64,000 bases of DNA from assembly GCF_000381965.1 (NCBI RefSeq), contig NZ_KB908463.1, positions 1-64,000 of the forward strand, read 5' to 3'. Both the position numbers and the translations under genes were made by a program. This DNA is from Oceanimonas smirnovii ATCC BAA-899. Lineage in GTDB: Bacteria; Pseudomonadota; Gammaproteobacteria; Enterobacterales; Aeromonadaceae. Under the pieces are notes generated by a model. The model ran no database searches, was not told the origin of the DNA, and saw only the letters and a program-made list of their open reading frames with translations. This document shows positions 45,136-61,463 of this stretch, piece by piece (positions within the stretch are counted from its first letter, which is position 1; each line of letters starts with the position of its first letter).

Positions 45136-45843
45136 GTGACCCCTTCCATTCCCCTTTATCAACAGATCAAGCAGCATATTCTGGCCCGTATCGAGTCGGG
45201 GGAATACCGGCTTCATCAGCAAATTCCCCCCGAGCAGGAGCTGGCTGAGCAGTTCAGGGTCAGCCGAATGACTGCTCACAAGGCCATTCGCGACCTGGTG
45301 CAGGAAGGCTATCTGATGCGCCGGGCCGGGCTTGGCACCTTTGTCACCGAGCCCAAGGCGGAGTCCCCCCTGGCCGACATCAATAACATCGCCGATGAGG
45401 TGCGAAGCCGGGGCCATGAATACGCCAACAACGTGCTGGTGCTCGACAGCCGGCGCGCCGATGAGGAAGTGGCCTTGCAGATGGGCATGCGACTCAATTC
45501 AAAGGTGTTTCACTCTGTGCTGGTGCACCTGGAAAACGGCGTGCCCATTCAGGTGGAAGAGCGTTTCGTTAATCCGCAGCTGGCGCCGGGGTATCTGCAG
45601 TGTGACTTCAGCAGTCAGACTCCCAACGCCTATTTGATGGCGCAGTGTCCGTTATCGGACATGGAGCATATTGTCGAGGCCCGGCTGGCGCCAGCCAACA
45701 TCAGTGACTGGCTGCAGATTTCATCACAGCAGCCCTGCCTGCTGGTGACCCGTCGCACCTGGTCACTGAACCAGCTGGTGAGCTTCGCCCGTCTCTGGCA
45801 TCCGGGCAACCGCTACAAACTGAGATCAACGATGAAGTTATAA
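45136..45843 (+). CDS. hutC: Histidine utilisation repressor (GntR/HutC family)
   Basis: A 235-aa repressor. An N-terminal GntR winged helix is at 8-72 (EQELAEQFRVSRMTAHKAIRDLVQEGYLMRRAGLGTFV). A UTRA ligand domain follows at about 90-230 (WLQISSQQPCLLVTRRTW). It should release DNA on binding urocanate and control the hut genes. The start is GTG 45136 with a strong AGGAGG site. Matching boxes occur upstream of itself and hutI. Confidence 0.93.
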   Translation: MTPSIPLYQQIKQHILARIESGEYRLHQQIPPEQELAEQFRVSRMTAHKAIRDLVQEGYLMRRAGLGTFVTEPKAESPLADINNIADEVRSRGHEYANNVLVLDSRRADEEVALQMGMRLNSKVFHSVLVHLENGVPIQVEERFVNPQLAPGYLQCDFSSQTPNAYLMAQCPLSDMEHIVEARLAPANISDWLQISSQQPCLLVTRRTWSLNQLVSFARLWHPGNRYKLRSTMKL

Positions 45844-45864
45844 GTGCCGTGCTCGCTCGTCGGC

Positions 45865-45961
45865 CAAAGGGCACTGCTTCTCCGGCACGCCGTGAATACC
45901 TCCCTGTAGGCTCCGTCGCGCCATCCCTGGCACGAAGGGCACGGCGAAACAGTACCCTTTG
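45865..45961 (+). repeat. 97-bp intergenic element, copy A
   Basis: The element is bounded by CAAAGGG (45865-45871) and CCCTTTG (45955-45961). The arms continue inward with mismatches (ACTG/CAGT, TTC/GAA). Inside are hairpins around CCTCCCTGTAGG and GCCATCCCTGGC. Copy C at 53421-53517 has the same length, ends and order in the same orientation. It occupies part of the gene-free stretch 45844-46184 between hutC and yaeQ. Confidence 0.75.
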
Positions 45962-46025
45962 TCCTCCCCAGGCACGCTGAGCTGACTAATAGCTTCTGTT
46001 CAGGCCGCGCCGATGTTTCTCGAAG

Positions 46026-46132
46026 CAGCAGTGGGGATTGCCGGAGCCGACCGTCAAATGTCATGGATGACATTTGCCGAGCGTCCCATGGATGGGCTCG
46101 AAGCGTGTCGGCGTAGCGCAACCGCACTGCTG
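46026..46132 (-). repeat. Related intergenic element, copy B (reverse orientation)
   Basis: The outer arms are CAGCAGTG (46026-46033) and CACTGCTG (46125-46132), with GCCGAC/GTCGGC further in. At 46055-46076 there is a perfect hairpin (10-bp arms CAAATGTCAT/ATGACATTTG). A second hairpin, CCCAT/ATGGG, follows at 46085-46096. The core 46049-46110 matches the reverse complement of copy C with few changes. Confidence 0.75.
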
Positions 46133-46184
46133 ATTCGCGTGACGAATGTTCCAAAAGACAGACTTCCAGCTCTCCGAAGGAGTT

Positions 46185-46721
46185 TCACCGCCAGCGGGTC
46201 AGTTGCAGATCCAGGCTGTGGCTGCCGTCGGTAAGCTGAATTTCCTCTTCCTGCAGGGTGGCGAACAGGTCCATGCTGCGCTGGCACAGCTCCCCCAGTT
46301 GCGCCGGCTGGGGCTCGGCCAGATGAAAAATCTCCAGTCTGGGCAATTGGCTCAGCTCCACCTTGTGCTTGTTCCACCATTCCTCGGCGCTGCGGCCGCC
46401 ATAGCTGTACACCACCACTTGCTCGGCCCGGGACAGGGCCTGCTTGATGCGCTTGACGCTGGGCTCACCCAGCTCCACCCACAGCACAATGCGGCCGTCG
46501 GGGGCCTTTTGCCATAGCTCCGGCTCGTCGTCGGTGCTCAGCCCCTTGGTAAAGGACAAGTCTGCATCGGCATGGCGCATAAAGGCCAGCAGCCGCACCA
46601 TCAGGCGAATGTCGGTTTCGGAAGGATGCTGGGCCACGGTCAGGCTGTGAGCCTCGTAATAGTGGCGGGTCAGATCACTGATATTGATGCGCACCTTGCG
46701 CAGGGTGGCGGAAAGGGCCAT
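46185..46721 (-). CDS. yaeQ: YaeQ-family protein
   Basis: A 178-aa protein. The family is recognised from the start MALSATLRKVRINISDLTRHYYEAHSLTVAQHPSETD, then LSFTKGLSTDDEPELW and VLWVELGEPSVKRIKQA. YaeQ has a PD-(D/E)XK nuclease-like fold but unknown function. It lies inside the hut region, divergent from hutI, although E. coli yaeQ has no link to histidine use. ATG 46721 has a GGAAT site; the longer frame to 46796 is not supported. Confidence 0.92.
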   Translation of the reverse strand: MALSATLRKVRINISDLTRHYYEAHSLTVAQHPSETDIRLMVRLLAFMRHADADLSFTKGLSTDDEPELWQKAPDGRIVLWVELGEPSVKRIKQALSRAEQVVVYSYGGRSAEEWWNKHKVELSQLPRLEIFHLAEPQPAQLGELCQRSMDLFATLQEEEIQLTDGSHSLDLQLTRWR

Positions 46722-53403: not shown

Positions 53404-53420
53404 GCCCGGCGTCAGTCGGA

Positions 53421-53517
53421 CAAAGGGACGGTTTCACGACACGCTTCAAGCCCCTCCCTGGGGCGCTCGGCAAATGCCATCCATGGCATTTGATCGGTCG
53501 TGAAACCGCTCCCTTTA
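53421..53517 (+). repeat. 97-bp intergenic element, copy C
   Basis: The ends are CAAAGGGACGGTTTCACGAC and GTCGTGAAACCGCTCCCTTT, an imperfect terminal inverted repeat with a single unpaired C. Inside are a GCCCC/GGGGC hairpin and a perfect hairpin at 53471-53492 (arms CAAATGCCAT/ATGGCATTTG). It shares length, ends and order with copy A at 45865-45961. Confidence 0.8.
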
Positions 53518-53544
53518 CCCTCCTTGCGAGCATTGGCTTGGTAG

Positions 53545-61343: not shown

Positions 61344-61387
61344 GGATTGGGGAGCAGGGAGTGGAACAGACGCCTCGGGCAAGCGAG

Positions 61388-61425
61388 GCAGTAGCAGGGA
61401 TTGCCGGAGCCGGCCCTGCTACTGC
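61388..61425 (+). repeat. Intergenic hairpin related to copy B
   Basis: GCAGTAGCAGGG (61388-61399) and CCCTGCTACTGC (61414-61425) form perfect 12-bp arms. The arm and loop together contain GGGATTGCCGGAGCCG, which is also at 46034-46049 in copy B. It appears to be a partial or diverged member of the same family, between the LysR gene and rlmJ. Confidence 0.6.
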
Positions 61426-61463
61426 ATCGCGTTACAGAAAGGGAGAAAAAACGGCAGGCGTCG

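Follow-up and report, generated by a model that had tools for sequence, protein, structure and literature searches.

A dispersed YPAL/RU-2-type repeat of Oceanimonas smirnovii whose predicted RNA carries two CsrA-type hairpin loops

Repeat elements in the window

The window, which is the whole stretch of 64,000 nucleotides of Oceanimonas smirnovii DNA analysed here, carries two repeat elements, of classes A and B, in the gap between two convergent genes, which encode a GntR/UTRA regulator and YaeQ. A third element, of class C, lies at 53 kb, where its neighbours are a SAICAR-synthetase-like gene on one side and an ABM-domain gene on the other. The elements were scored with a covariance model, R1, and with a YPAL-type model, R2, which was built from many genera and applied to the window. 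The features are as follows.

46021-46136, + strand: class A element, an outer stem enclosing two GGA hairpins (R1, 137.7 bits)
46022-46051, + strand: 5′ arm of the outer stem, GAAGCAGCAGTGGGGATTGCCGGAGCCGAC, partner of 46107-46136
46107-46136, + strand: 3′ arm of the outer stem, assigned from covariation on 24 class A copies
46055-46076, + strand: hairpin 1, CAAATGTC-ATGGAT-GACATTTG, with a CsrA-type ANGGAN loop at 46063-46068
46085-46096, + strand: hairpin 2, CCC-ATGGAT-GGG, loop at 46088-46093
45862-45967, - strand: YPAL-like element of class B, facing the class A copy head to head (R2, 75.9 bits, E 5e-20)
53414-53525, - strand: class C element, the common two-hairpin core with a distinct outer stem, AAAGGGA...TCACGAC (R1, 78.7 bits)
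53471-53492, - strand: class C hairpin 1, the hairpin of 46055-46076 except for C-G in place of one T-A pair
53450-53464, - strand: class C hairpin 2, GCCCC-AGGGA-GGGGC
61384-61428, + strand: remnant with an internal deletion, both GGA hairpins gone and the outer-stem arms fused (R1, 23.2 bits, and sequence)

The class A copy is also matched by R2 (E 4e-8). Its outer stem is imperfect and 30 nt long, and 25 nt separate its two GGAs. Folded as RNA, it has a minimum free energy of -59 kcal/mol (z -5.2) and the 53-kb copy has a z of -5.7, none of 200 shuffles being equally stable in either case. A sequence-only reading of the window had described the hairpins at 46055-46076 and 53471-53492, including the change of T-A to C-G in both arms, and second hairpins that differ between the copies (46085-46096 and 53450-53464) and stay paired; all of this is as it had noted. 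However, the unit is larger than it had supposed, since the outer stem belongs to it, and the 2-nt loop drawn there gives way to a hexaloop, A-N-GGA-N, on an invariant C-G closing pair. On this invariant loop, the more specific signal, that reading made no remark.

Its proposal that selection acts on a single-stranded fold is borne out by covariation both within the genome and across genera. When 24 class A copies are aligned, pairing holds in 99.1% of the 885 pair cells (94.7% in shuffles), double-sided compensatory change occurs in 11 of 37 pairs, and the cells with such change number 42 against 9.1 in shuffles. The alignment has a covariation score of 0.195, a value that none of 500 shuffles reaches (0.107 for shuffled alignments), and slid controls give 0.002-0.056; arm changes are thus more correlated than in shuffles, and the larger alignment that had been called for leaves the proposal standing. 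Double-sided changes affect 7 of 23 pairs of the outer stem and two of the three pairs of hairpin 2, whereas the GGA and closing C-G of hairpin 1 are invariant in 24/24 copies despite changing stem pairs. The outer stem also contains a symmetric internal loop, G-N-A/G-N-A, in which G and A are kept and N is variable.

A DNA search of the 3.3 Mb genome of O. smirnovii gave 40 close copies of class A (44 matches overall) and 18 good copies of class B, and the covariance model gave 84 matches of all kinds, including class C, which has its core in common with class A and differs in its outer stem. The pattern CATGGATG occurs 182 times in the genome, against 25 for the backwards pattern. Most class B copies have a class A copy as a divergent (head-to-head) neighbour at a distance of about 60 nt. 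In such pairs (e.g., 45862-46136) the spacer of about 60 nt is itself alike between copies, and so the pair may move as a single unit of 275 bp. L007 carries two TPP riboswitches (1274-1370 and 2815-2921) on opposite strands, no more than 1.5 kb apart; a class A element lies about 130 nt from one of the two.

Relation to YPAL/RU-2 and spread in Gammaproteobacteria

Genome contigs were scanned for the family with hairpin 2 of class B as the query, its six loop letters being left free. At least 118 stretches in many gammaproteobacterial genera were found, the matches listed including Yersinia, Pantoea, Shewanella, Rheinheimera, Marinobacter, Halopseudomonas, Stenotrophomonas, Lysobacter, Methylomonas, Nitrococcus, Oceanimonas and others. 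Among the contigs with listed matches, only one, from an Oceanimonas (L195), has the class B outer stem of the O. smirnovii genome. The freed loop of hairpin 2 has A in 123/123 and GGA in 122/123 of the matches listed, with its second and sixth letters free. Hairpin 1 was located without reference to a motif; among the matches listed, 98 of its 104 loops contain GGA, on 77 different stems, and the distance between the two GGAs is 22-24 nt in 95 of 98. The outer arms of the same matches have no common sequence across genera (median identity 29%), and each arm nevertheless fits its own partner, the duplex energy being -50.6 kcal/mol with the own partner and -25.7 kcal/mol with swapped arms. In 41 sequences across genera, the closing C-G of hairpin 1 is fixed in 40, the remaining six pairs of that stem vary, and every pair but this loop-closing one covaries freely; these figures are biased because a sequence had to have GGA in a clean hairpin 1 to enter the subset, the unbiased figures being the tallies of 123 and 104 loops.

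The sequence of RU-2/YPAL of Yersinia in PMC2759123 holds the same core as the present elements. Judged by shared core sequence and fold, the window element is a copy of a YPAL/RU-2-type family, and we regard its structure and family membership as near certain. Both have the core GCGCCANGGATGGCGC...GAGCCTACATGGATGTATTTACGGCGT and an outer palindrome, are about 100-170 nt long, and occur between genes in many copies; some YPAL/RU-2 copies have flanking duplications, and a few of the copies considered here have direct repeats that may correspond to them. YPAL/RU-2, however, has been described in Yersinia and Erwinia only, as a miniature insertion sequence, whereas the elements considered here extend over many gammaproteobacterial genera, have three types of outer stem and include classes, A and C, with a diverged core.

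The element is unmatched in Rfam at the gathering threshold, and a permissive search gave a weak match to Ysr224 only, antisense to the element. Ysr224 (RF02770) overlaps YPAL on the opposite strand, and is listed in a review as a temperature-responsive sRNA of Yersinia (PMC9029176). On contig L275 (G253:C1, 3288-4652), six tandem units of 227 bp each contain one YPAL-type element on the same strand together with a CGGCTGAAGCCGCTCCTACA palindrome, so that twelve GGA hairpins follow one another.

Strand polarity, genomic placement and mobility

Does the fold act as RNA or as single-stranded DNA? Of 117 elements, 95 are more stable as RNA on the GGA strand than on the complementary one (p 5e-13). 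So are all 24 class A copies, whereas in neighbouring control stretches the two strands do not differ in folding (99/219). Within pairs that are mostly Watson-Crick, G-U occurs 22 times and A-C three times. The polarity of the fold and the excess of G-U therefore indicate that one strand is under selection, and point to RNA rather than duplex or cruciform DNA as the selected form, single-stranded DNA being less likely.

Gene context was examined for 27 copies in 864 kb of stretches of the O. smirnovii genome using simple gene calls. All 27 are intergenic, and 26 have a gene 3′ end on one side or both; convergent gaps hold 10 of the 27 (background, 54/387) and divergent gaps only one (background, 101/387). 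This placement is what speaks for a cis-acting 3′ structure of the adjoining mRNAs, such as a terminator, stabiliser or processing site, and a structured 3′ RNA end had also been put forward in the sequence-only reading. However, although the fold is strand-polar, in tandem gaps the ratio of sense to antisense copies is 8:8 in the O. smirnovii genome and 19:25 in other genera, i.e., there is no orientation bias. Nor do orthologous sites keep the element: the GntR-YaeQ gene pair is kept in 16 congeners, 14 of which, including one 96% identical at yaeQ, have no element in the gap, and the other two have other family members there in an arrangement of their own. As the element comes and goes and has no sense bias, the fold is kept by something other than cis regulation of one mRNA, and we consider a cis-acting 3′ role improbable. 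At the site orthologous to 45843-46185 in congeners (L252-L255 and L261), a different repeat, which is G-rich (GGGGATTAGGGACTGGGGA... and its complement), occupies the convergent gap.

Many intergenic copies together with empty sites in relatives are also what characterises YPAL/RU-2, for which target duplications and empty sites have been published (PMC2229807). It can be asked whether the family is a miniature transposon acting at the DNA level, whose mobility enzyme reads a single-stranded DNA fold and whose likeness to CsrA sites is coincidental. The lack of orientation bias and the intergenic turnover of copies agree with this, as do direct repeats of 17-19 bp that flank 3 of about 115 copies, all in other genomes (five 120-nt matches, which are slicing artefacts, were left out of the flank comparison). 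The only match on viral contigs, a YPAL copy on the prophage-like contig L274 (6140-6360), lies between two copies of an 18-bp direct repeat, AGGCCACCTGTGTGGCCT, each of them a terminator-like hairpin. On the other hand, retention of G-U and not of A-C is an RNA signature, and copies have no replication-strand bias, either in the O. smirnovii genome (12 with, 15 against) or in one complete congener. A search for a recurrent neighbour gene as a candidate mobiliser gave none, the largest cluster being six genes from five loci. The match to every constant and variable letter of the CsrA site, and to its spacing, would have to be coincidence. A purely DNA-level transposon thus seems to us an unlikely account, though a less unlikely one than cis regulation.

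A particular form of DNA mobility, the REP/BIME element moved by a RAYT transposase, had been suggested in the earlier reading. REP/BIME elements, too, are dispersed palindromes by gene 3′ ends with head-to-head pairing, and RAYTs are present in 12 of 23 congeners; element number, however, is independent of them, averaging about 42 in congeners with a RAYT and about 40 in those without. In the O. smirnovii genome, the search that had been proposed for a RAYT-type transposase yielded a single Y1 transposase, an IS200/IS605 TnpA beside TnpB, which fails the RAYT cut-off (25.7 vs 80 bits) and passes that of IS200 (142.9 vs 55 bits), so that the genome has no RAYT. REP is, moreover, a palindrome of 20-40 nt with a GTAG tag (PMC3733652), in contrast to the present element, which exceeds 100 nt and has two hairpins with invariant GGA loops on an outer stem. 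The REP/RAYT reading is largely refuted, and mobilisation by a RAYT has very little probability.

CsrA-type loops

The high-affinity site of CsrA/RsmE is an ANGGAX hexaloop placed directly on a stem, although AGGGA and AAGGA pentaloops are also bound tightly (PMC4005645); the CsrA motif has been given as CANGGANG (PMC4353343). A CsrA dimer can span two sites if they are separated by 10-63 nt, and does so best above 18 nt (PMC7652899). In the elements, the ANGGAN loop likewise sits directly on a stem and is closed by C-G, the fixed and free letters coincide exactly with those of the published site, and the spacing is in range. The O. smirnovii genome encodes one CsrA, closely similar to that of E. 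coli. In a sample of 249 genomes of the phylum, csrA is present in all 17 element-bearing genomes, the element occurring in 17 of 158 genomes with csrA and in none of 91 without it (p 4e-4; within the class, p 0.014), an association weakened because the genomes share ancestry.

From these sequence comparisons, we favour, with some reserve, the view that the element is a non-autonomous mobile repeat of the YPAL/RU-2 type whose predicted RNA presents two CsrA/RsmA sites. Binding of CsrA by the element RNA is likely. The GGA strand, once transcribed, would form the outer stem and the two hairpins, each hairpin offering a C-G-closed ANGGAN site, and one CsrA dimer could clamp both loops of a single element RNA. 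Copies transcribed in the right sense may then act as small CsrA-binding RNAs, serving as decoys or as protected RNA ends. As there is no orientation bias with respect to genes or replication, any transcription of about half of the copies would yield the TCC strand. Because the loops are intact even in copies antisense to genes, binding of CsrA or folding may matter to the life cycle of the element itself. Against the favoured view stand the long stems of the elements, since CsrA hairpins obtained by SELEX mostly have four or fewer pairs (PMC7652899), and the Rfam model overlapping YPAL, which describes the opposite strand.

A bolder version, which we offer as speculation and hold to be rather doubtful, is that a gammaproteobacterial mobile RNA family spreads via an RNA for which CsrA binding is essential, with every copy supplying a further CsrA decoy, and that dispersed repeats and tandem arrays, the latter seen in one genome, constitute a CsrA sponge besides CsrB/RsmZ. 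Until now, YPAL-type repeats have counted as nondescript insertion sequences of Yersinia. Should they be a class-wide RNA family made to accommodate a CsrA dimer, repeat mobility in bacteria would be tied to a global regulator, and each genome would contain tens of unannotated CsrA sites, confounding models of the CsrA regulon and of sponges; one could then also test concretely why the loop letters of a dispersed palindrome stay the same while all else varies.

The CsrA link is absent from the YPAL/RU-2 literature examined, and an earlier report was not found in the searchable literature, which did not include the original YPAL paper. The argument itself has a precedent: TwoAYGGAY RNA (RF01731), which has two hairpins with AYGGAY loops and a poorly conserved external stem, has been proposed on the same grounds as a CsrA-binding RNA (PMC4333381). 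Unlike the present element, it is not described as a dispersed repeat in that report, and its model gave no match in the O. smirnovii genome even at E 10. CsrB, RsmY and RsmZ also bind CsrA dimers by GGA hairpin loops, but each of these is a gene of its own, with a terminator and numerous sites, whereas the element is a dispersed two-site repeat, and it was unmatched to these sRNAs in the Rfam search. A weak RsmY match in L095 was rejected as due to chance, being the end of an rpmG-like coding gene with its terminator. One genome of the same class, G182, contains nine CsrA-family genes and many of these elements.
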